From Dehalococcoidia bacterium (lineage in GTDB: Bacteria; Chloroflexota; Dehalococcoidia; GIF9; AB-539-J10): DNA of 8,688 nucleotides. The notes below the pieces were generated by a model. The model was not told the DNA's origin and did not search any database. It saw nothing but the letters and a program-made list of their open reading frames with translations. Location of the stretch: contig DAOUSX010000024.1 in NCBI GenBank assembly GCA_030627025.1, positions 1-8,688 on the forward strand, in the 5' to 3' direction. How positions within the stretch are numbered: the first letter of the stretch is position 1; each line of letters opens with the position of its first letter. Shown one piece after another: positions 1 to 8,688 of this stretch. The translations under genes and the position numbers were made by a program.

Positions 1-1216
1 GGTTCTCGGAGGAAGCGCCACCGGTGGGTAGTTTAGTGGGCTCTTCCCACTTAGGGGGGCAACCCTCAGGATTAGAACAAATATGAATTAAGGCGTTAGC
101 GGAATTACCTTTGCCTAATACTTCCCCGGCAAGGAGTATGCCTCCCTGGTAATCAATCGAAGCTATACCAACATCATTGCCCCCTTTGACATCCAGTCTG
201 TATACCTGTTTGCCAGGTTCTACTATCCGGTATACATCATCACACCCGGTGGTAGAATTAGAGTAATAACTGGCGTAGGCAATCCAATTCTTTTCACTAT
301 AATCTTGGTCTGAACGGAGTGCTAAATCGGAGAAGATGATTTCATTTTCGTCGGGTGAGTCACCCAAGCTGCTGTCAATGATTTCTATGAATTTCTCTGG
401 TAAAGTCCATGTTGTCTCCTTGGTTTCAGTATTCCTTTCTCCAGTGCACAGGAATGTCCTGTCTTGTAGTGACGACGGAGCTATATCATTTGCTGAGGAG
501 GCGATGGCGAGTATCGCTTTGTCTTCGGCATAGTTAGGCGAGAAGCGGACTGTGCTTACATCGGCGGTGGTGTTTGGTGTAGTTGGGTCTATCTGCAGTT
601 CTTGAGCCTTCCAAAGAGGTGTCAGGCTTTCCCATTTAATTACCCAGACATCACCATTGGTCAAGCCATCGGGTTTTCTGGTGCCTATAGCGCCGTCATA
701 GTAGGTGTCGTCATATTTCTGAGAAATGGCGATATCTGAGATAAGCGTGCCATTTAAATCGAAATCGGTGCTGTTTTTCCATTTGCCTTCCCACTTATCC
801 CCGCCATTATCGGAGAGATACACGGCGGTCCTGTTATCAGTGACTACTGCCACCCAATCAGGGTTATCCGGGGCAACAGCGATATCCCAGGCGGGCAATT
901 CAGCGTCGGCTTCAATGAGAGCATCGGTTATATTTTCCCAGGTAACGCCAGCATCAGTCGACTTATAAACCGTTCCATTGGGAATATCTATGGCGTAAAA
1001 AGTTTCATTCTGGCCGGCAACAAAGGCGTTTATCTCGCTGGGGCTAACCACTACATTTCCTTCTTCACTGGGAGTGTCAACAACAGACCACTTTAGCCTG
1101 TCTGGATTGGCTGAAGTTGGCTGGCTGCCAAGCAGGGGAACGAGAGTGGCAAAAAGAAAAAAAACAATCAGTATTGCAGATAACCTTGCACATCTATCTC
1201 TATGCATTATGCTCAT
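1..1216 (-). CDS. Secreted Asp-box (BNR/VPS10-like) beta-propeller protein, C-terminus missing
   Basis: The reading frame is open from the start codon to the left edge, giving 405 residues with no stop, so the C-terminus lies outside. Residues 1-36 look like a Sec signal peptide: positively charged MHRDRCAR, a hydrophobic stretch at about 13-30, and a likely cleavage after TSA at 35-37. The mature part carries two Asp-box motifs, STDAGVTWENI (86-96) and SDNGGDKWEG (135-144), the hallmark of BNR/sialidase-like and VPS10-type propeller blades. Further blade-like phrases such as VRFSPNYAEDKAILAI (223-238) follow. Such proteins are exported or surface-attached. Asp-boxes are structural and do not identify an enzyme, so no activity is assigned. 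The ATG at 1216 is used here; an ATG at 1207 is equally possible, and neither has a clear Shine-Dalgarno. The gene is divergent from the pilus operon, so a shared role is not implied. Export and propeller fold are fairly sure; function is unknown. Confidence 0.85.
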   Translation of the reverse strand, partial: MSIMHRDRCARLSAILIVFFLFATLVPLLGSQPTSANPDRLKWSVVDTPSEEGNVVVSPSEINAFVAGQNETFYAIDIPNGTVYKSTDAGVTWENITDALIEADAELPAWDIAVAPDNPDWVAVVTDNRTAVYLSDNGGDKWEGKWKNSTDFDLNGTLISDIAISQKYDDTYYDGAIGTRKPDGLTNGDVWVIKWESLTPLWKAQELQIDPTTPNTTADVSTVRFSPNYAEDKAILAIASSANDIAPSSLQDRTFLCTGERNTETKETTWTLPEKFIEIIDSSLGDSPDENEIIFSDLALRSDQDYSEKNWIAYASYYSNSTTGCDDVYRIVEPGKQVYRLDVKGGNDVGIASIDYQGGILLAGEVLGKGNSANALIHICSNPEGCPPKWEEPTKLPTGGASSEN

Positions 1217-1243
1217 TATTAAACAACAGGTTAAGGTTTGGCA

Positions 1244-1275
1244 ATACCCCTCGTGGTATCCCCTTGCATAGCAAG
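1244..1275. repeat. Two adjacent small hairpins in the divergent intergenic region
   Basis: ATACC (1244-1248) pairs with GGTAT (1255-1259) across a 6-nt loop. CTTGC (1263-1267) pairs with GCAAG (1271-1275) across a 3-nt loop. They sit in the 5' leader of the minus-strand secreted-protein gene and just upstream of the promoter for the pilus-side operon. They could be operator sites or leader structures, but both are short. Confidence 0.35.
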
Positions 1276-1283
1276 CTAAACCG

Positions 1284-1312
1284 TTGACTATCTTACTGCC
1301 TTGCTATATCAT
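1284..1312 (+). promoter_or_regulatory. Sigma70-like promoter for the Roadblock/pilus operon
   Basis: TTGACT (1284-1289) matches the -35 consensus at 5 of 6 bases. It is followed, after exactly 17 bases, by TATCAT (1307-1312), which matches the -10 consensus at 5 of 6. Transcription would begin near 1319 and give a leader of about 170 nt that includes most of the tandem duplication. It is the best-matching promoter I found in the window and faces the first operon gene. The -10 overlaps the perfect inverted repeat ATATCA-TTT-TGATAT (1306-1320), which could serve as an operator. Confidence 0.55.
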
Positions 1313-1462
1313 TTTGATATTACGTTAGTCAGGTATTTTAGAAAAAGGGATTGTGGCAATAATGACTAAATTCCTATTTACTGCCTTACTATATCGTTTT
1401 AGTATTACATTAGCTAGGTATTTTAGAAAAAGGGATTGTAGCGATAATGACCAAATTCCTAT
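1293..1462. repeat. 85-bp tandem duplication upstream of the Roadblock operon
   Basis: Copy 1 (1293-1377) and copy 2 (1378-1462) align without gaps at a constant offset of 85 bp and differ at about 10 positions. All of those differences are transitions. Both contain TATTTTAGAAAAAGGGATTG. Copy 1 holds the predicted -10 element and the ATATCA/TGATAT inverted repeat; copy 2 has lost perfect symmetry (ATATCG-TTT-TAGTAT). The region encodes no protein. 85 bp is close to eight DNA helical turns, so equivalent sites in the two copies would lie on nearly the same face of the helix, as expected for paired regulator sites. Confidence 0.85.
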
Positions 1463-1474
1463 TACGAAAGTATG

Positions 1475-1486
1475 AAAGGAGGTGAT
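1475..1486 (+). promoter_or_regulatory. Strong Shine-Dalgarno that sets a TTG start
   Basis: AAAGGAGGTGAT is a full 12-base complement of the usual 16S rRNA 3' end. It lies downstream of the in-frame ATG at 1472 and ends just before TTG at 1490, with 7 bases between GGAGG and TTG. The ATG at 1472 overlaps this site and has no Shine-Dalgarno of its own, so TTG is the better start. Confidence 0.8.
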
Positions 1487-1489
1487 AAG

Positions 1490-1936
1490 TTGGCAGTAGA
1501 AGAAGATAATAAAGAGACGGAAGAGACAGAAGAGGTAGAAGAGACAGAAGAGACAGAAAAGAGGAGTATAGGCGACGTTGTAAACGAGATAGCAAGCACG
1601 ACCGATGGCTTACTGGGGGTGGGAATAATGGACATGGAGGGTGTTCCTGTTGCCGTTGTTACACCGCCCGGCGCAACACTCAATGCTGAATTAGCGGCAG
1701 CCCAGTTGGCTGTGGTGGTGCGCCTGTGTAGTTTGACTGCTGACAAGCTAAAGCTCGGCGATTTTGATGAAAATTTGATCACCACCGCTTCAAAGTATAT
1801 TTTGACTAAGGCTCTCACTTCCGACTTCTATCTGGCAATGATTTTATCCAAGGAGTCCACTACTCTTGGTATGGCGCGTTTAGTGGCCAGAGAACATGCT
1901 GCCCAGGTATATCAAGCGTTGCCTAAATTTGAATGA
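1490..1936 (+). CDS. Roadblock/LC7 domain protein with acidic N-terminal tail (MglB-like)
   Basis: This is a 148-residue protein from the TTG start, chosen because a perfect Shine-Dalgarno precedes it; starting at the ATG at 1472 would add six residues. Residues 4-24 are almost entirely Glu and Thr, encoded partly by a 9-bp tandem repeat. Residues 25-148 form a Roadblock/LC7 domain: an opening helix, then DGLLGVGIMDMEGVPVAVV (39-57), the helix LNAELAAAQLA (64-74), TADKLKLGDFDENL (83-96), YLAM (114-117) and a closing LGMARLV helix. No signal peptide or membrane segment is present, so it should be cytoplasmic. Proteins of this family dimerise and commonly act as GAP or scaffold for Ras-like GTPases such as MglA. 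Its neighbour is a paralogue, and its stop overlaps a possible start of that gene. A GTPase partner is not in the window, so control of the pilus motor is an inference from position. Confidence 0.88.
   Translation: MAVEEDNKETEETEEVEETEETEKRSIGDVVNEIASTTDGLLGVGIMDMEGVPVAVVTPPGATLNAELAAAQLAVVVRLCSLTADKLKLGDFDENLITTASKYILTKALTSDFYLAMILSKESTTLGMARLVAREHAAQVYQALPKFE
1520..1555 (+). repeat. 9-bp in-frame tandem repeat encoding E-E-T/V
   Basis: Four consecutive 9-bp units, GAAGAGACA with one GAAGAGGTA variant, encode EET-EEV-EET-EET in the acidic tail of the first Roadblock protein. The unit is a multiple of three, so slippage would lengthen or shorten the tail without breaking the frame. Confidence 0.85.
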
Positions 1937-1992
1937 TGGCTGATTTATCTAGGTTTACCTGGGGCAAGGGGAAGAAGAAGGGTGAGCCAGGA

Positions 1993-2000
1993 AAAGGAGG
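1993..2000 (+). promoter_or_regulatory. Shine-Dalgarno favouring an internal start in the second Roadblock gene
   Basis: AAAGGAGG lies 4 bases before ATG at 2005. The same 4-base GGAGG-to-ATG spacing occurs at the pilC start in this window. The upstream alternatives, ATG at 1933 and 1936, overlap the stop of the preceding gene and have no clear Shine-Dalgarno, but could be used by translational coupling. Confidence 0.6.
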
Positions 2001-2004
2001 TAAA

Positions 2005-2388
2005 ATGGGAGCAGGAGGAAACTTAAACAGCATATTGGAGGAGATGGCAGGGCAAGTTGACGGGTTATTATGTATTGCAGTGGCAGGTAGTGACGGGGTT
2101 GCCATTTCCAGCTATGTGCCTTCTGGTTCTATGCTTAACGCAGAGTTAGCTGCAGCTCAACTAGCGGCAATATTCAGGATCGCGCGAACGAGCGCAGATA
2201 AGCTAAAGGCTGGTGACCTTGAGGATAACTTGTTCACTTCAACTGCAGGTCAAATTTTAATTAGACCTCTGGGTCAAGAATCCTATTTAGCCATGGTGAC
2301 TACTAGGGATGCCCCGTTGGGCATAGTGCGATTGGTGGTTAAGAGCTATGCTAGCAGAGTGGAGCAAGCTCTGGGTAGAGGCAGTTAA
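2005..2388 (+). CDS. Roadblock/LC7 domain protein, paralogue of the preceding gene
   Basis: From the ATG at 2005 the protein has 127 residues, which is a bare Roadblock/LC7 domain of normal size. It aligns along its whole length with the preceding gene, about 45% identical by hand count over ~105 residues. Shared blocks are DGLL (19-22), LNAELAAAQLA (44-54), SADKLKxGD, YLAM (94-97) and LGIVRLV (105-111). It is cytoplasmic with no signal peptide. An alternative start at 1933 (ATGA overlap with the upstream stop) or 1936 would add a 23-24-residue basic, Gly/Lys-rich extension including WGKGKKK, opposite in charge to the acidic tail of its paralogue. Adjacent paralogues suggest a heterodimer or a pair of homodimers. 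The expected partner is a small Ras-like GTPase, not seen here. The pilB ATPase gene begins 85 bp downstream, so a role in pilus control is plausible but inferred. Confidence 0.86.
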   Translation: MGAGGNLNSILEEMAGQVDGLLCIAVAGSDGVAISSYVPSGSMLNAELAAAQLAAIFRIARTSADKLKAGDLEDNLFTSTAGQILIRPLGQESYLAMVTTRDAPLGIVRLVVKSYASRVEQALGRGS

Positions 2389-2404
2389 AGATAAATCGCC
2401 GGTC

Positions 2405-2440
2405 AATATCAAGCTATCTCACGTTAGTTTGATATTTTAG
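2405..2440 (+). promoter_or_regulatory. Inverted repeat plus shared motif upstream of pilB
   Basis: AATATCAA (2405-2412) is an exact inverted match of TTGATATT (2429-2436) across 16 bases. Within and after it, ACGTTAG (2421-2427), five bases, then TATTTTAG (2433-2440) reproduces with identical spacing the arrangement at 1322-1341 in the first 85-bp repeat. An ATATCA lies 15-16 bases upstream of ACGTTAG in both places. This looks like a third, diverged copy of the same regulatory element. It could be a regulator-binding site or part of a second promoter; no convincing -35/-10 pair was found here. Confidence 0.45.
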
Positions 2441-2473
2441 TTATTGTTTCTTAAAATATAGCTGAATAGGAAG

Positions 2474-4933
2474 ATGGGACAGAGTAACAAGAATAAGAAT
2501 GAAGGTCAGCTAAAGGGTGCTGCGCATCCTGAGTTTCAATTTGAGAATCAACTGCAAGATGTTGAGGGACAGTTTATCAGGAAGGTCACGGCGCTGGGCT
2601 ACAAAGTTGAGCGCCATGTTACCCTTGAAGGTAAGTTTAGAACTGAATATACCTTCGATTTGTTAGCTCGCAAGAATAATGGACTTATATCCTGTGTCAC
2701 CGCTATAGGTATCGTCAAGCATGATAATGGTCAGCCGATAGGATTAACCGAAGTTTTCGAATTTGATGACAAATGTTATAACTGTGACATTTGGGACAAA
2801 GTCCTCATTGCCCTTCCCGGGCTTGATTCTGTAGCAGCTCAATTTGCCCGTGGGCAGCAAATAAAGATTTTATCTGAAGAAAGCCTTAAGGAATTTTTAG
2901 CCTTATCCATTGCCAAACGGGACAGGAAAACTGTGGTGGTGGGATTTAACTCCAAGGAGCAATTACTGTCCTCTCTTACTGAGTTGGGATACACAATTGA
3001 ACAGGACAGTAAAGTGAAAGGGAGATCTGGTGCTGAATATACCTTTGATATTTTGGCCAGAGAAGATGACGGGTTTATTCCTCACCAATTAGCTATAGAC
3101 GTGCTAACTGGGGGGCGAGTGGACTTGGAAGAGATGTCTTTATTCGACAAAAAGGCCTATGATGCTGAAATCCAGCAAAAGGTTTTGTTCATTTCGGGTG
3201 AGCTTACTGCCGAGGCTGCGGAGTTTGCTCAGCAGCAAAAGATCAATGTTATCAGGCTTGGTAGCCCAAGCAAAGAAATATCTATCGGTGAGGAAGTTGG
3301 TGAAGAAGAGGAAGTGGCTGCCAAGGAAGAGACTCGCCAACAGGGTATGTCTGCCATTGAAAGTGCTCTTTCGGAGATATTAACCAAAGCACCGGAACCA
3401 AAGGCAGAGGTGAAACCGGAGGAAGCAAAGCCAAAAGCGAAGGCGAGACTACTCAAAAAGGCAATCGTCCCTGAGGTATTGAAGTTGGTTCCTGAGTCTA
3501 CCGCAAGAAGATTTATGGCCATACCGTTGTCCGTTAGGGGCAATACCTTGGAAATGGCGATGGCAAATCCTGCTGATATATTCGCTCTTCAAATTCTAGA
3601 GCACCAGAGCAAGATGAGGGTAAAACCGGTGGTTGTTGAGGAAAAGGAAATTCAGGAGGCCATTGACTTTAATTACAGAGGTTTTGGGCAAATTCAGGAG
3701 CAATTAGCCGGTATTTCTGAAGATACGGCTGGTGGTGGGGAAATGGACTTAATCGCCGCTACTGCGGATGCTCCAGTAGCTAGTGCTTTACACCTTATTA
3801 TTGATGAAGCGGCTAAAGCCAGAGCCTCCGATATTCATATTGAACCAGAGGAAGATAGATTGAGGGTACGCTACCGTATTGATGGCGTCCTTCAGGATAC
3901 CTTGTCCTTGCCTATAACCATACATCCCGCACTGACCTCTCGAATCAAAATAATGAGTGATATGAACATCGCTGACCATATCCGCCCCCAGGACGGTCAA
4001 TTCACCATTGAAGCTAGTGGTAGACCTATCGATGTTCGTGTTGCTACTTGTCCCACAGTTCACGGTGAGGGAACTGTGTTGCGGCTTCTGGATAAGACAT
4101 TGGCTGCGCGTGAGTTAGCTGGATTGGGTTTTCTCCCTGAAACTTTGGAAAAGTATCAGGAGATGCTCAGAGTTCCCTTCGGAATGATCGTAGCTAGCGG
4201 ACCTACCGGCTCTGGGAAAACTACTACGCTTTACGCTTCCATCAATCAGTTAGATAAAGTATCTCGGAAGATCATCACTATTGAAGACCCTGTGGAATAT
4301 CGCTTTCCAAATATAAATCAAATTCAGATTAACCCCAAGGCTGGACTTACCTTTGCCAGTGGGCTGCGGTCTATATTGCGTCATGACCCTGATATTATAT
4401 TGGTGGGCGAGATACGAGATGACGAAACAGCCAGAATAGCTGTTCAATCTGCCTTGACAGGGCACCTGGTTCTCTCTTCCCTGCATGCCAATGATGCCGT
4501 GGGCGTTGTTTACCGTCTGCTCGACCTTGGTATAGCGCCGTTCCTCGTGGCTTCAGCACTTATTGGCGCGGTAGCTCAGCGTATGGTGCGGCGTGTTTGC
4601 CTCGATTGTGCCCATTCCATTACAGCCTCAAAACTGGAGCAGGTAGCTTATGAAAAAGAAATTGGGGAACATAGGGAGGAATTCCTCTATGGTAGTGGTT
4701 GTGAACCGTGTGCTTATTCGGGATATCGAGGCAGGGTGGGAATGTTTGAGGTGCTTCATATGAGCGATGAACTGAGGATGATGATACTGAGAGGCGCCAG
4801 TAACGTTGAATTTCGAGAACAGGCGTACAAGGAAGGTATGGTTCCCCTACTTAAAGATGGTATGCTCAAGGTGAAGGAGGGCATAACTACTCCATCTGAG
4901 GTACTACGTAATGCGTATAGCCTAGAGGAGTAA
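2474..4933 (+). CDS. pilB: PilB/GspE-family pilus assembly ATPase with duplicated nuclease-fold N-terminus
   Basis: This 819-residue protein is far longer than typical PilB (~560-570). The C-terminal half is a complete secretion ATPase: Walker A GPTGSGKT (576-583), Asp box TIEDPVEY (602-609), Walker B region DPDIILVGEIRD (638-649), His box SLHANDA (669-675), and a zinc-type tetracysteine C709/C712...C743/C746. Residues ~328-402 match the second half of the GspE N-terminal (T2SSE_N/MshEN) domain. Residues 33-143 and 162-263 are two copies of one domain (LGY...EYTFD(L/I)LAR...), resembling Mrr-type PD-(D/E)XK folds but lacking a complete catalytic triad. An acidic and then Pro/Lys-rich linker (272-327) follows. 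The family forms cytoplasmic hexamers that power pilus extension through PilC, encoded 23 bp downstream. ATG 2474 has only AGGAAG immediately adjacent, a poor ribosome site, yet no better in-frame start was seen. The ATPase call is certain; the N-terminal fold is inferred. Confidence 0.96.
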   Translation: MGQSNKNKNEGQLKGAAHPEFQFENQLQDVEGQFIRKVTALGYKVERHVTLEGKFRTEYTFDLLARKNNGLISCVTAIGIVKHDNGQPIGLTEVFEFDDKCYNCDIWDKVLIALPGLDSVAAQFARGQQIKILSEESLKEFLALSIAKRDRKTVVVGFNSKEQLLSSLTELGYTIEQDSKVKGRSGAEYTFDILAREDDGFIPHQLAIDVLTGGRVDLEEMSLFDKKAYDAEIQQKVLFISGELTAEAAEFAQQQKINVIRLGSPSKEISIGEEVGEEEEVAAKEETRQQGMSAIESALSEILTKAPEPKAEVKPEEAKPKAKARLLKKAIVPEVLKLVPESTARRFMAIPLSVRGNTLEMAMANPADIFALQILEHQSKMRVKPVVVEEKEIQEAIDFNYRGFGQIQEQLAGISEDTAGGGEMDLIAATADAPVASALHLIIDEAAKARASDIHIEPEEDRLRVRYRIDGVLQDTLSLPITIHPALTSRIKIMSDMNIADHIRPQDGQFTIEASGRPIDVRVATCPTVHGEGTVLRLLDKTLAARELAGLGFLPETLEKYQEMLRVPFGMIVASGPTGSGKTTTLYASINQLDKVSRKIITIEDPVEYRFPNINQIQINPKAGLTFASGLRSILRHDPDIILVGEIRDDETARIAVQSALTGHLVLSSLHANDAVGVVYRLLDLGIAPFLVASALIGAVAQRMVRRVCLDCAHSITASKLEQVAYEKEIGEHREEFLYGSGCEPCAYSGYRGRVGMFEVLHMSDELRMMILRGASNVEFREQAYKEGMVPLLKDGMLKVKEGITTPSEVLRNAYSLEE

Positions 4934-4956
4934 GCGCAGGCGTATGAGGAGGTTCT

Positions 4957-6165
4957 ATGGATTTTGAGTATCTAGCGTATACCAAAGAGAGGCAATTACT
5001 CAAAGGTAAAATCAGTGCTGTTTCGGAGGAGGCGGCCGTCAATACCCTTAATTATAGTGATTTGCGCGTGGTGACCTTGAAAACAGTTACTCCATTTTTC
5101 AATGTGGAAAAGTTGACCGCTGCCTTTACGACGATAAAGCCCAAAGAGGTGGTAATGTTCTCCAAGCAGCTAGCCTTGCTTCTCGAATCAGGAACTGACG
5201 TCGTCGCTGCCCTTGAGTTATTGCAAGGACAAATTAGCAATCGCGCCTTGAGGACGATGGTAAACGAGGTAATCACCGCCGTTCGCGGTGGTGCCAAGCT
5301 ATCCCAGGCGTTGTCAAGACACCCCAAGGCTTTCTCCAGGCTCTATTGCCGCACTATTGCTATTGGCGAAGAGACTGGTAACCTGGAACAGGTGTTGAGG
5401 CAAATAGCTGATTATATTGAAAAGGAAGCCCTCGCTGCCAAGAAGGTAAAAAGCGCTATGATTTATCCCATAATAGTGACGCTATTGGTGATCATGGTTA
5501 TTGCCATAATGGTCTTCTTTGTTATGCCTAATTTTATGGGCCTTTATGGGGCACTTGGTGCTGAACTGCCTATGGCGACCAGAGCTCTTCTCGCCGTAAG
5601 TGGCTTCCTGTTAAGTTACTGGTGGGCAATTCTGCTTGCCGTACTCGGTGTCGCCGCTGGTCTTTATGTCTATATCAAGACGCCTGCGGGTAGGTATCGG
5701 TGGGATTCGTTTAAACTCAAGATGCCTCTTCTCGGTCCTGTTACCCTGTTCAGTGAGCTTTCACGTTATGCTAACACTGTAGCCACTTTGTTTCGTGCTG
5801 GTGTCCCGTTGCCTGAGATAATGACTCTGTCCATCGATAACGCTGAAAACAAGGTGATTGCTGACGCACTGACCACTGTGCGTGACGAAATGCTTAAAGG
5901 GCAAGGGCTATCACGCCCTATGTCTCGAAATCCCATCTTTCCCGCTCTCATAGTGCAGATGGCTGCTGTGGGTGAAGGAACCGGTAACCTCGATGCCACC
6001 ATGGAAACCGTGGCGCAGAGTTACGAAATGGAAGCCAATGACCGCACTGATGCTCTTATCGCTGCCATTACGCCAGCCACCACCCTGATTATGGGGGGTA
6101 TAGTGGCGTTCATCGCTCTGGCTCTCGTCTCTGCTATGTATGGTGTTTTTGGGCAGATGGGTTAA
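4957..6165 (+). CDS. pilC: Type IV pilus inner-membrane platform protein PilC/GspF
   Basis: At 402 residues this is the normal length for PilC/GspF. It has the two-fold repeated T2SSF architecture: cytoplasmic domain one (about 64-168) with FSKQLALLLESG (68-79) and GEETGNL (137-143), then domain two (about 265-370) with LSRYANTVATLFRAGVPL (268-285) and GEGTGNL (339-345). Three hydrophobic segments lie at about 170-192, 214-240 and 372-396. The protein sits in the inner membrane and couples the PilB ATPase to pilin insertion at the pilus base. A GAGGAGG Shine-Dalgarno (4946-4952) stands 4 bases before the ATG. The gene begins 23 bp after pilB and is almost certainly cotranscribed with it. A repeat-filled island follows its stop, so the minor pilin genes downstream may need their own promoter. 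The family assignment is secure. Pilus versus type II secretion use cannot be settled from this protein alone. Confidence 0.96.
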   Translation: MDFEYLAYTKERQLLKGKISAVSEEAAVNTLNYSDLRVVTLKTVTPFFNVEKLTAAFTTIKPKEVVMFSKQLALLLESGTDVVAALELLQGQISNRALRTMVNEVITAVRGGAKLSQALSRHPKAFSRLYCRTIAIGEETGNLEQVLRQIADYIEKEALAAKKVKSAMIYPIIVTLLVIMVIAIMVFFVMPNFMGLYGALGAELPMATRALLAVSGFLLSYWWAILLAVLGVAAGLYVYIKTPAGRYRWDSFKLKMPLLGPVTLFSELSRYANTVATLFRAGVPLPEIMTLSIDNAENKVIADALTTVRDEMLKGQGLSRPMSRNPIFPALIVQMAAVGEGTGNLDATMETVAQSYEMEANDRTDALIAAITPATTLIMGGIVAFIALALVSAMYGVFGQMG

Positions 6166-6360
6166 ACAGCCATTGCTGCACTGCCGTTTAACGGTGCTGG
6201 CAAGTTACAGAAAGTAGCCTGGTAATCTCTCTGTCATTGTAGCCCCATCTTAACTGTCATTGCGAGCCCACTTCACCTGTCATGCGAGCGCTTTTTATTG
6301 TCATTGCCGGCCTTTTTTTATTGTCATTGCGAGCGTAGCGTGGCAACCTCAGCGGGGTAT

Positions 6361-6481
6361 GGGATTGCTTCGTCGTTGACACTCCTCGCAATGACAGGAG
6401 GGGGAGTCATTGCGAGCCGAAGGCGTGGCAATCCCGGGAAAGCAAAACTCAAAAATCAAAGGGCAAAATGACAGAGCAAAA
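6361..6481. repeat. 121-bp composite repeat, copy A
   Basis: This unit recurs at 6544-6664 at an offset of 183 bp. Order within the unit: inverted element beginning GGATTGCTT, CTCCTCGCA(A/G)TGACAG, forward element TCATTGCGAGC...GTGGCAATC, then an A-rich tail. The tail is identical between copies over 43 bases (6439-6481 against 6622-6664), while the front half has small substitutions and indels. Confidence 0.85.
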
Positions 6482-6543
6482 GTGAAAAAGCAGTCGGCAT
6501 GAAGCTGAAGGCTGAAAGCTGATAGCTGATAGCTACTAACCTG

Positions 6544-6664
6544 GGGATTGCTTTGTCGCTTCCGCTCCTCGCAGTGACAGAAGGGAGGTGTCATTGCGAG
6601 CGAAGCGTGGCAATCTCAGGAAAAGCAAAACTCAAAAATCAAAGGGCAAAATGACAGAGCAAAA
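6544..6664. repeat. 121-bp composite repeat, copy B
   Basis: Second copy of the unit at 6361-6481, separated from it by 62 bp that include the AGCTGATAGCT tract. The uneven divergence between a variable front and an identical 43-bp tail suggests either recent gene conversion of the tail or composite origin from two repeat families. Confidence 0.85.
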
Positions 6665-6684
6665 ATAAGTCAAAAGTCAAAGTG

Positions 6685-6713
6685 CAAAATGAAGGAAGTA
6701 TTCTTGCATTTTG
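6685..6713. repeat. 13-bp-arm hairpin at the A-rich/T-rich junction
   Basis: Bases 6685-6697 can pair with 6701-6713 around a 3-base loop (GTA). The stem has seven perfect outer pairs (CAAAATG/CATTTTG), one mismatch, one G-T and four inner pairs. It marks the point where A-rich repeats on the left turn into T-rich ones on the right, as if two related repeats lie head to head. It lacks the GC-rich stem and directly adjacent T-run of an intrinsic terminator. Confidence 0.5.
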
Positions 6714-6748
6714 AGTTGTAATTTTGCTTTTTTACCTTTGCTCTTTGG

Positions 6749-6776
6749 TCTTGGTATTTTAGTCTTGGTATTTTAG
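6749..6776. repeat. 14-bp perfect tandem repeat
   Basis: TCTTGGTATTTTAG occurs twice without a gap (6749-6762 and 6763-6776). It lies at the end of the T-rich part of the repeat island and is probably part of that repeat family. Confidence 0.85.
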
Positions 6777-6824
6777 TACTAACATAACTGTGGGTCCTTG
6801 CCCCCGGGATTGCTTCGGCACGTT

Positions 6825-6866
6825 GTGCCTGGCAATGACAAGAGGGGAGCGTGCCTGGCAATGACA
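6825..6866. repeat. 16-bp direct repeat within dispersed elements
   Basis: GTGCCTGGCAATGACA occurs at 6825-6840 and again at 6851-6866, 26 bp apart. Each is the end of an inverted copy of the TCATTGC-type element, so this looks like a local partial duplication. Confidence 0.8.
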
Positions 6867-6980
6867 TGCCTCTTCGTCATTGCGGCCCCTTTTTACTGTC
6901 ATTGCGAGCGAAGTGAAGCAATCTCGCTGGTTGCTAGCTAGAGCAAGATATAGTAGACTTAAAGACATAAAGGAGACGAG

Positions 6981-7418
6981 ATGAGGCTTGTAACCGGTCA
7001 AAAGGGACAGACTTTAATCGAGGTGCTTATAGCTGTAGCTTTGCTGGGCATGCTTGCCACTGCCTTTCTCGGTGGCCTATTTGCCGCGCTCAAGGCTGAC
7101 ATCATTGCTGATGAGAGAGCTGTGTGCCAGAGCCTGTCTCAAAGCCACCTGGAATTCGTTAAGAGCCAGGTATGGTCTTCAACTGCAGGCTGGGATTACA
7201 CTGTTACCCCCGATGCTGCTACTCCGGGAACTCAGCCAAGTTGGTGGGATCCTGCTAATGGTGTGCCTCCTCTTGTCTCTGAGGCAGAATGTGGCACTGG
7301 CTATAGTGTGCTGGTCAAGGCTGAGGACATTGAGGGTGATCTTCGGGAGATAACCGTTAAGGTCTACCGCATCGGCGAACTCAAGCTTACACTGGAAGGC
7401 TATAAGGCGAAGATATGA
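6981..7418 (+). CDS. Minor pilin/pseudopilin, PilV/GspI-like
   Basis: This 145-residue protein has a class III (type IV pilin) signal. The short basic leader MRLVTGQKG (1-9) is followed by QTLIEVLIAVALLGML, so prepilin peptidase would cut after Gly9 and leave Glu at mature position +5 (residue 14). Mature +1 is Gln rather than the more usual Phe. The hydrophobic helix spans about 11-37. The C-terminal part, YSVLVKAEDIEGDLREITVKVYR (108-130), resembles the ITVxV strand region of PilV/GspI-type minor pilins. The product would sit in the inner membrane and join the pilus, probably in the tip or priming complex. A GGAG motif at 6972-6975 precedes the ATG at usual spacing. It is the first gene after the repeat island and overlaps the next gene by 4 bases. 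Pilin class is secure; the PilV/GspI label is by order and size. Confidence 0.88.
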   Translation: MRLVTGQKGQTLIEVLIAVALLGMLATAFLGGLFAALKADIIADERAVCQSLSQSHLEFVKSQVWSSTAGWDYTVTPDAATPGTQPSWWDPANGVPPLVSEAECGTGYSVLVKAEDIEGDLREITVKVYRIGELKLTLEGYKAKI

Positions 7419-8014
7419 AAAAGCTGAGATTGATTAACCGGAACCAGAAGGGGTTTACCTTAATTGAGCTACTTGTAGCTATCGCCATAGCCGCGGTCGT
7501 TGGTGCCACCGTCACCGTTTGTATCCAGCAGGTAATGGCAAAAACGGTGTTCAGCAATAACCAATTGACCACTCTAAATCAGGTGCGCAATGTGGGTTAC
7601 TGGATTAACCACGATGTCGTGATGAGCCAGCCTGATGAAGGTGACAATACAACTGTAAAGTGCATGTATGATGACCCAGATAATGATAGGTATGTGCTGC
7701 TTCAATTGAAGAGAAGTGAATGGAATGAAACTGAAGGTAAGTTGGTTGATATATGCAACTTCACTTACTATTTCCTTAAAAGCCCTGATGAAGAGAGCAT
7801 TCAAGACCTTCACCGGGAGGTCTCCAATCCAACGACTGGCATAACACGCATCATCATTGCCCGGTATATTGATGTTGCCAATACTAACTGTACTTATGAA
7901 CCGCCAGACGAAGAAGGGGAAACGAAGGGTTCAATTATGCTAAATGTGACGGCACAATATAATAATGTAGTCAAATCCAAGTCGTTCCAGATTGGCTTCA
8001 GGCTGACAGCATAG
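7415..8014 (+). CDS. Minor pilin/pseudopilin, PilW/GspJ-like
   Basis: This 199-residue prepilin has the leader MKKLRLINRNQKG (1-13) cut before FTLIELLVAIAIAAVVGA. That gives Phe at +1 and Glu at +5 (residue 18), the canonical type IV pilin processing site. The hydrophobic helix runs from about 14 to 38. The segment QVRNVGYWINHDVVMSQ, just after the helix, resembles the start of the globular domain in PilW/GspJ-like minor pilins. Several extracytoplasmic Cys residues (in VKCMYDD, DICNFTYY and NTNCTYEP) could form disulfides. Its ATG overlaps the stop of the preceding gene (ATGA, 7415-7418), which implies translational coupling and matched expression. It is expected in the inner membrane before incorporation into the pilus tip complex. 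The specific PilW/GspJ label rests on size, position and the post-helix motif. Confidence 0.87.
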   Translation: MKKLRLINRNQKGFTLIELLVAIAIAAVVGATVTVCIQQVMAKTVFSNNQLTTLNQVRNVGYWINHDVVMSQPDEGDNTTVKCMYDDPDNDRYVLLQLKRSEWNETEGKLVDICNFTYYFLKSPDEESIQDLHREVSNPTTGITRIIIARYIDVANTNCTYEPPDEEGETKGSIMLNVTAQYNNVVKSKSFQIGFRLTA

Positions 8015-8022
8015 GAGGAATG

Positions 8023-8688
8023 ATGAAGTATGCGATAAAATTGGGTAAGTTAATAAGGGGACAGAAAGGACAGGCGACCATATCAGCAGCAATGATTCTG
8101 CTGTTGATAGGTGGTATTCTCATCCCGCCCTGCCTTGGTTTTGCCGTGGTCAGCCTTAAAGCCAGCCAGTCGGGGGAGCAGGTGTTGAAGGGGCGCTATG
8201 CTGCCGACTCCGGTGTAGAAGCTGCCATATGTAAAATAAAGGATGGGAACCTAAGCATGCCGGTATATTCATATTCCTTGGATGAGAAAGTAAATGACAG
8301 AGATGTAAATGTTACCATACGGGAAATAGTTGGGGGAGTTTATAAGATTATCTCTAATGCTACCAGCGATAGTGGAGGTAATACCACGATTGAATGCTAT
8401 GTGTTAAATATTCCTAGTTTTCTCAACCTCTTTGATAACGCCATTACCAGTAATGGCACCGTATGCGTCAAGGGCGACGTCAACGGTAGCGTCGTTGCGG
8501 AAGATTGCACAAATCATACTGGATGTAACAATACTAACTGCACCGAGCTAGGCGACCTAGAAGAGCCAATAATTTGGCCTTCAGCGGTGCAACTTTCGAC
8601 ATATTACTGGGACGATGTCAAAAATTTAGAACCACCCTTCCCTTACAACGACCCCCTGGATATTGCCGGTACCAACACTACCATAGAA
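8023..8688 (+). CDS. PilX/GspK-like pilus assembly protein, C-terminus missing
   Basis: The frame is open to the right edge, giving 222 residues with no stop. ATG 8023 is preferred over ATG 8020 because GGAGG (8014-8018) is then 4 bases away, as at pilC. The N-terminus has a basic leader ending GQKG (13-16), a hydrophobic segment (about 18-46), then RYAADSGVEAAICKIKDG (58-75), which fits PilX_N-type proteins. If cleaved after Gly16, mature +5 is Ser (residue 21), not Glu. GspK tip pseudopilins likewise lack Glu5. The rest is an Asn/Thr-rich extracytoplasmic region with several Cys (125, 148, 162, 168, 173) that could form disulfides. It begins 8 bp after the PilW-like gene stop and completes a V-W-X (I-J-K) order. 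The PilX/GspK assignment is likely; the C-terminal domain is unseen. Confidence 0.82.
   Translation, partial: MKYAIKLGKLIRGQKGQATISAAMILLLIGGILIPPCLGFAVVSLKASQSGEQVLKGRYAADSGVEAAICKIKDGNLSMPVYSYSLDEKVNDRDVNVTIREIVGGVYKIISNATSDSGGNTTIECYVLNIPSFLNLFDNAITSNGTVCVKGDVNGSVVAEDCTNHTGCNNTNCTELGDLEEPIIWPSAVQLSTYYWDDVKNLEPPFPYNDPLDIAGTNTTIE

Follow-up and report, generated by a model that had tools for sequence, protein, structure and literature searches.

Among the inputs described for the type IV pilus assembly ATPase PilB are the second messenger cyclic di-GMP (c-di-GMP), bound at the MshEN domain, and PilZ/FimX, according to a review (PMC11656802). In the related ATPase MshE, nearly all contacts with c-di-GMP are made by residues 1-64, the N-terminal half of the domain (MshEN_N), as given in parts of its description (PMC5013675). 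Here, we describe a PilB-family ATPase of a Dehalococcoidia bacterium (Chloroflexota; assembly GCA_030627025.1) in which this half is missing, its position being taken by two Mrr-like domains in tandem. The gene lies in a window of 8,688 nucleotides, positions 1 to 8,688 of the forward strand of contig DAOUSX010000024.1. On the best reading of the data, a pseudo-nuclease pair replaced a second-messenger half-domain as the regulatory input of a type IV pilus motor, the regulation itself and any partner or ligand being what we infer. The sequence-only reading from which this work started had pointed out the pair, and had noticed neither that only the C-terminal half of the usual MshEN is left nor that, in relatives, a distinct protein encoded next to PilB carries the same pair. 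The parts of the ATPase are as follows.

2474..4933, + strand: PilB/GspE-family pilus assembly ATPase with N-terminal tandem pair, 819 amino acids (aa); T2SSE PF00437 (E 2.7e-123), MshEN PF05157 and Mrr_cat PF04471
2570..2875, + strand: pseudo-nuclease copy 1, residues 33-134; Asp62 kept, Gly79-Ile-Val at the (E/Q)xK site
2957..3259, + strand: pseudo-nuclease copy 2, residues 162-262; Mrr_cat match over 167-260, Asp192 and Asp209 kept, Leu211 at the Lys site, Lys227 nearly invariant in the next helix
3260..3460, + strand: linker, residues 263-329; acidic at its start, with the short motif IESALSEILTKAP; predicted local distance difference test (pLDDT) below 50 at 274-291, the chain being modelled to 291
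3461..3679, + strand: MshEN_C half of the input domain, residues 330-402; Pfam MshEN, with the match to MshE (5htl) starting at chain residue 68; c-di-GMP-binding MshEN_N half absent
3761..4909, + strand: T2SSE ATPase core; Walker A (576), Walker B (638), His box (662), CxxC...CxxC (709)

The loss of MshEN_N is seen in several ways. The alignment of the family profile begins only at chain residue 68 in MshE (5htl) and only at residue 83 in PilB (5zfr). A profile of MshEN_N itself, built from 25 canonical PilBs (17 of the same class, 8 from the rest of the phylum), gives 60-117 bits on its source sequences and, when each is left out in turn, at least 45 bits for 24 of the 25 (locus L159, 7.1). 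It does not exceed 3.4 bits in any other PilB, namely 43 with the pair in the same chain (cis), 5 next to a separate protein carrying the pair (trans) and 11 short ones including L140. Neither the strict nor the relaxed form of the two RLGxx... motifs occurs in the window PilB; among canonical PilBs serving as controls (8 of the 10 other-class loci, L128 and L129 being left out), the relaxed form is found in 6/8 and the strict form in 3/8. MshEN_N is thus missing in the window PilB and its clade, and the pair takes the position that MshEN_N has in canonical PilBs of this class and phylum. This occupation of the position of the c-di-GMP-binding half is what is new.

A tree of the PilB core (84 rows, quick search, support from the Shimodaira-Hasegawa-like approximate likelihood ratio test only) places all PilBs devoid of MshEN_N, L140 aside, in one clade of 58 with a support of 91, and 57 of them under a branch with a support of 99. 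All 25 canonical rows are outside. The clade is made up of 43 cis, 5 trans and 10 short forms, so that the pair is present in cis or trans in 48 of the 58 sampled members. Of the cis rows, three are truncated at contig ends (L040, L041, L060), one has an interrupted copy 1 (L100) and two are identical to each other (L101/L104). L140 was dropped from the short PilBs because it is cut by a contig end and is placed among the canonical rows. A whole PilB clade without the c-di-GMP half offers a natural domain swap for asking how the N-terminal input controls a pilus motor. Besides these forms, one PilB of 1098 aa has four pseudo-nuclease copies (L141:1570-4866), and three others (L142-L144), of 880-1282 aa, have their pairs with very long linkers.

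Of 61 near relatives, 35 have the pair, as do 42 of the 244 class genomes searched (E 1e-6) and 17 of 301 genomes of the phylum, all 17 in its own class. The search for the same N-terminus on PilB homologues, which the sequence-only reading had called for, thus gives a range limited to one class among the 301 genomes. In twelve loci of f5 and f7, chosen as matching in the phylum search, the pair is on PilB, with a stop inside copy 1 in L100. A PilB core is present in 39 of the 42 class genomes with the pair vs. 46 of the 202 others, a count that combines two class searches, taken as covering the same 244 genomes.

The internal repeat was the part of the sequence-only reading drawn directly from the letters, and it holds. 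Its span, 2570 to 3262, runs from the first base of residue 33 to the last base of residue 263. Local alignment of residues 33-143 with 162-263 scores 164, as compared with a mean of 26 (standard deviation 4.4) and a best value of 57 in 2000 shuffles of both pieces. A hand count on this alignment gives 37 identities in 98 aligned pairs, with the same 19 of 49 over the first positions as counted before, and the shared LGY, EYTFD(L/I)LAR and KVL...A..FA..Q(Q/K)I are all there. The proposed Mrr-type PD-(D/E)XK fold is likewise supported. Mrr_cat matches the whole protein at E 2.1e-5 (25.1 bits, Pfam cut-off 21) and residues 1-292 with 29.3 bits in two stretches; copy 2 alone reaches 20.9 bits, slightly under the cut-off, and copy 1 alone has no Pfam match. 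When single copies from the family are searched, 13 of 19 match Mrr_cat at E up to 1, the best at 6.7e-10. The AlphaFold model (pLDDT 83.4) has an a-b-b-b-a-b core twice, once per copy, and its best PDB fold matches, with rows for either copy, are restriction-enzyme-fold proteins: AF1548 (1y88, the nearest solved fold), a Pyrococcus repair endonuclease, AspBHI and RPB5. A viral structure library returned only restriction-enzyme and RPB5-like matches, with middling E values (best 3e-4). Sequence searches of the PDB gave nothing for single copies and, for a 19-copy profile, one unrelated match at E 0.23.

At the site where a nuclease would carry its lysine, both copies differ from the rule. Aligned with stronger Mrr_cat proteins (YVQAKK, YIQCKN; three loci from related genomes, of which L067 and L068 align with a clear QxK), copy 1 has G79-I-V and copy 2 has D209-V-L at the (E/Q)xK position, as had been predicted. 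The missing catalytic lysine is a family trait: none of 559 unique copies, from loci and from homologues (the best 120 of 137 and the best 120 of 823 in the protein searches), has [DEQ]xK at the aligned site. Other parts of the site are kept. The first Asp (Asp62/Asp192) is present in 111/126 PilB copy-1s and 122/130 PilB copy-2s, and Asp209 in 124/130 copy-2s; an acid at the 79 site is found in only 39/126 copy-1s. The helix motif FDxKxYD is conserved together with the first Asp. Lysines are also retained nearby, Lys100 in 122/126 copy-1s and Lys227 in 128/130 copy-2s, and Lys82 lies one residue past the copy-1 site, opposite the second Lys of QAKK, a late position shared by 33/126 PilB copy-1s, the window included. 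The pair is most likely catalytically dead, judging from these alignments, with the reservation that lysine migration is known in the PD-(D/E)XK superfamily (PMC1189080, in the part available), that Lys100 and Lys227 are nearly invariant and that Lys82 follows the copy-1 site.

In relatives, the same pair also occurs as part of a separate gene product. In five trans loci (L047, L049, L050, L051, L166), a short PilB of 518-526 aa is preceded directly upstream, on the same strand and with a gap of 9-27 nucleotides in all five, by a gene for a TackOD1-pair protein of 447-473 aa; the TackOD1 zinc ribbon of L047 is matched by Pfam at E 1.8e-40. L038 has both cis and trans forms, plus three Roadblock-like genes. 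In an unrooted tree of 81 of the 85 copies (109 columns; short copies and L022, which repeats L002, were left out), one side of a 100/99 branch holds 20 PilB copy-2s, one contig-cut copy and 6 TackOD1 copy-2s, five of these six proteins being in PilB loci and the sixth (L048) at a contig end. The other side holds the PilB copy-1s, all TackOD1 copy-1s and the other 14 TackOD1 copy-2s. Because copy 2 of both forms falls on one side of this branch, the pair in cis and in trans is the same; because copy-1s and copy-2s split across PilB and TackOD1 proteins, the duplication is older than the fusion to PilB. In the model of one TackOD1-pair protein (P0103), fold matches run mainly through the first pair domain, residues 205-390 being spanned.

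Mostly longer TackOD1-pair proteins occur in nine further loci (L052-L059, L061). In L055 (7969-10293), the one in which the receiver was checked, the protein is receiver-TackOD1-pair, with the pair at its end, and its neighbours are a family-2 glycosyltransferase, an epimerase, a response regulator and a histidine kinase. An MshEN_C on this glycosyltransferase was considered as a common partner and is unsupported: its N-terminus consists, by eye, of membrane helices, and MshEN_C is not among the printed profile matches. Stand-alone TackOD1-pair genes also lie near pilin-like open reading frames (ORFs) in L044, L045, L046 and L148, with a PilT-like ATPase ORF in L044 and L045.

The T2SSE core of the ATPase to which the pair is attached is intact, all of its motifs being present. 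The protein falls under both NCBIfam equivalog cut-offs, that of PilB (TIGR02538, 515.7 vs. 675.65 bits) and that of GspE (TIGR02533, 521 vs. 630.25 bits), and for this reason it is called PilB-family rather than PilB proper. The linker between pair and MshEN_C is probably flexible, judging from the low confidence of the model there. The pattern of its short motif is found in 56/115 PilB homologues; it was written after the window's own sequence and the count is descriptive.

Taken together, these features lead us to propose, with a probability of about 55%, that the Mrr-like pair, of predicted PD-(D/E)XK fold, without the usual Lys and in the place of MshEN_N, is a regulatory docking input to the pilus motor. 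That the pair is a regulatory module is suggested by where it stands, by its occurrence both fused to the motor and encoded next to that motor, and by the receiver protein that carries it. Protein docking, as opposed to cutting or DNA binding, is suggested by the dead site and by the acidic make-up of the copies (net charges -3 and -8 for copies 1 and 2 of the window; medians -3 and -4, ranges -10 to 3 and -13 to 3, over 116 homologues). The pair would then be a compact unit, held to MshEN_C and the ATPase ring by the flexible linker. On docking to it, a partner, most probably another protein from a two-component or TackOD1 pathway, would move MshEN_C and thereby control pilus extension by the hexamer. 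Non-covalent binding of the TackOD1-pair protein to PilB would be expected in trans, and the cis form would correspond to this complex as a single fused polypeptide. Since the receiver-TackOD1-pair protein adjoins glycosyltransferase genes, the pair may further be a portable signalling module. More tentatively than for the pilus motor alone, one can imagine a restriction-enzyme fold gating surface machines in general: having replaced the c-di-GMP half-domain of a pilus motor in one class, it would act there fused or as a separate TackOD1 subunit, and elsewhere, next to exopolysaccharide genes, it would form the output end of receiver proteins.

Several observations weigh against this proposal. 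Enzymes with GGDEF domains are present in 52 of the 61 relatives, among them the window's genome; c-di-GMP signalling has therefore been retained, and the idea that it was lost along with MshEN_N is rejected. Ten PilBs of the clade (L130-L139) have neither MshEN_N nor the pair, which makes the pair dispensable; they stand at four places of the tree (L138; L134 and L135; L139; a group of six), and the nine genomes that contain them are not among the 42 with the pair, with the reservation that genomes may be incomplete. MshEN_N may thus have been lost before the pair arrived. TackOD1 is not a general partner, because only 1 of 11 cis genomes (G011) in a 99-genome sample of the class has such a protein; above the cut-off, TackOD1 is found in 3 of the 99, all three with the pair. 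The adjacent Roadblock proteins, which the sequence-only reading had put forward as possible partners, do not generalize either: Roadblock genes are directly upstream of PilB in 4 of 59 rows (window, congener L002, L038 and L141), 5 of the 59 having no upstream ORF on the contig.

Among the other explanations, the one that fares best, unlikely as we consider it, is that a small ligand, either a cyclic or a linear nucleotide, is bound by the pair in what is left of the active-site cleft, the pair being a direct second-messenger sensor that succeeded c-di-GMP binding. It would account for a pair in place of a nucleotide-binding half-domain and for the conserved aspartates of the dead cleft, and Card1/Can2 are among the fold neighbours; in Card1/Can2, the ligand is bound by CARF domains. 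The searches made found no ligand-bound relative of the pair's own domain type, and the scarcity of an acid at the 79 site in copy-1s argues against this explanation. A purely structural role, as a spacer or a stator contact of the ATPase ring after the loss of MshEN_N and with no sensing, is more doubtful. The ten short PilBs speak for it in that the motor can do without either module, but the pair is also a separate gene and part of a receiver protein, and its FDxKxYD helix motif and first Asp are conserved beyond what a spacer needs. Type IV pili serve DNA uptake, and the pair could bind DNA or RNA, coupling pilus action to this uptake or to a nucleic-acid signal; inactive PD-(D/E)XK domains presumably retain nucleic-acid binding in cases described in part of PMC1189080. 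The mostly acidic charge of the copies makes this a poor candidate, slightly behind a structural role. Finally, that copy 2 is still a nuclease whose lysine moved to the next helix is very improbable: Asp192, Asp209 and Lys227 are indeed conserved in PilB copy-2s and such migration has precedent (PMC1189080, in part), but Lys227 lies nine residues past the start of its helix (218-230), probably too far from the cleft by our estimate, and TackOD1 copies have Gly at the 209 site (126/128 copy-1s, 116/132 copy-2s) and a Lys at the Lys227 position in only 73/132 copy-2s.

The rest of the window is consistent with a pilus locus, PilC and pilins being identified with Pfam.

1472..1936, + strand: Roadblock/LC7-like protein 1, upstream neighbour; Robl_LC7 E 1.3e-4, 22.1 bits for a cut-off of 23
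1933..2388, + strand: Roadblock/LC7-like protein 2, upstream neighbour; Robl_LC7 E 2.3e-5, 24.5 bits for a cut-off of 23
4957..6165, + strand: PilC/GspF platform protein; T2SSF E 8.2e-58
6981-7418 and 7415-8014, + strand: two genes with a pilin N-methylation motif; N_methyl match in both
8020-, + strand (stretch 6981..8688): third gene, leaving the window end, pilin-like by position, no Pfam match

In a related locus, L049, PilN and a PilT-like gene are present together with a PilM match under the cut-off, none of the three being seen within the window. The roughly 800 bases that separate PilC from the pilin genes (6165-6981) contain dispersed repeats around TGTCATTGCGAGC. A divergent gene at 2-1216 (- strand) encodes a BNR/Vps10-like repeat protein (Sortilin-Vps10 E 6.7e-5, under the cut-off), relatives of which adjoin the pilus operon in many related loci. 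Directly upstream of PilB, a LuxR-type response regulator gene is found in all five loci tested with Pfam (L034, L097, L100, L134, L147), and other loci have genes of similar size at the same place. In L023 (2733-3134), a gene for a 23S rRNA-intervening-sequence family protein lies between PilB and PilC.

A defence function for the pair was considered and rejected, PADLOC giving nothing for the window pair; three weak PADLOC matches (E 1e-4 to 0.02, one of them to a CARF-PDDEXK model) fall in two TackOD1-pair proteins. The inactive NACHT-associated domain NA-iREase1 (PF22722) matches 1 of the 19 single copies weakly (E 0.0058) and neither window copy. As for the literature, the main text of the PilB review contains no words beginning with restriction, nuclease or Roadblock (PMC11656802), and the titles and abstracts listed by searches on TackOD1, restriction-endonuclease-like domains and archaeal or Dehalococcoid pili describe no such pair on a pilus motor, within a coverage that leaves out most subscription journals. 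The docking proposal would also suggest a likely function for a large protein family of possible pilus regulators, one member of which (P0268) is filed as 'restriction endonuclease'.

Four described systems can be set beside this locus. With the Mrr_cat restriction endonuclease domain (PF04471; AF1548, 1y88), the pair shares an above-cut-off sequence match and a predicted fold; it differs by the absent (D/E/Q)xK, by its tandem layout and by its fusion to a pilus ATPase. Inactive restriction-enzyme-fold domains are also attached to nucleoside triphosphatases (NTPases) in the NACHT-associated and other iREase families (PF22722; PMC10853773, in part); those sit in defence-type NTPases, such as the iREase within Orc/CDC6 ATPases, whereas the window pair is on a pilus ATPase. 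TackOD1 and Roadblock proteins have been reported in archaeal pilus loci, and thaumarchaeal type IV pilus loci contain TackOD1 proteins (arCOG06883), including REC-TackOD1, that is, receiver fusions; in the parts of these sources available (PMC5847659, PMC4858521), TackOD1 proteins are described as zinc ribbons only, whereas here TackOD1 comes with a pseudo-nuclease pair and PilB may carry the pair itself. Finally, MshE and PilB with MshEN, as presented in the accessible parts of PMC5013675 and PMC11656802, share with the window protein the ATPase core, the MshEN_C half and an N-terminal input in front of it. They have an MshEN_N with both 24-residue c-di-GMP motifs; the window protein has, instead of MshEN_N, the Mrr-like pair.
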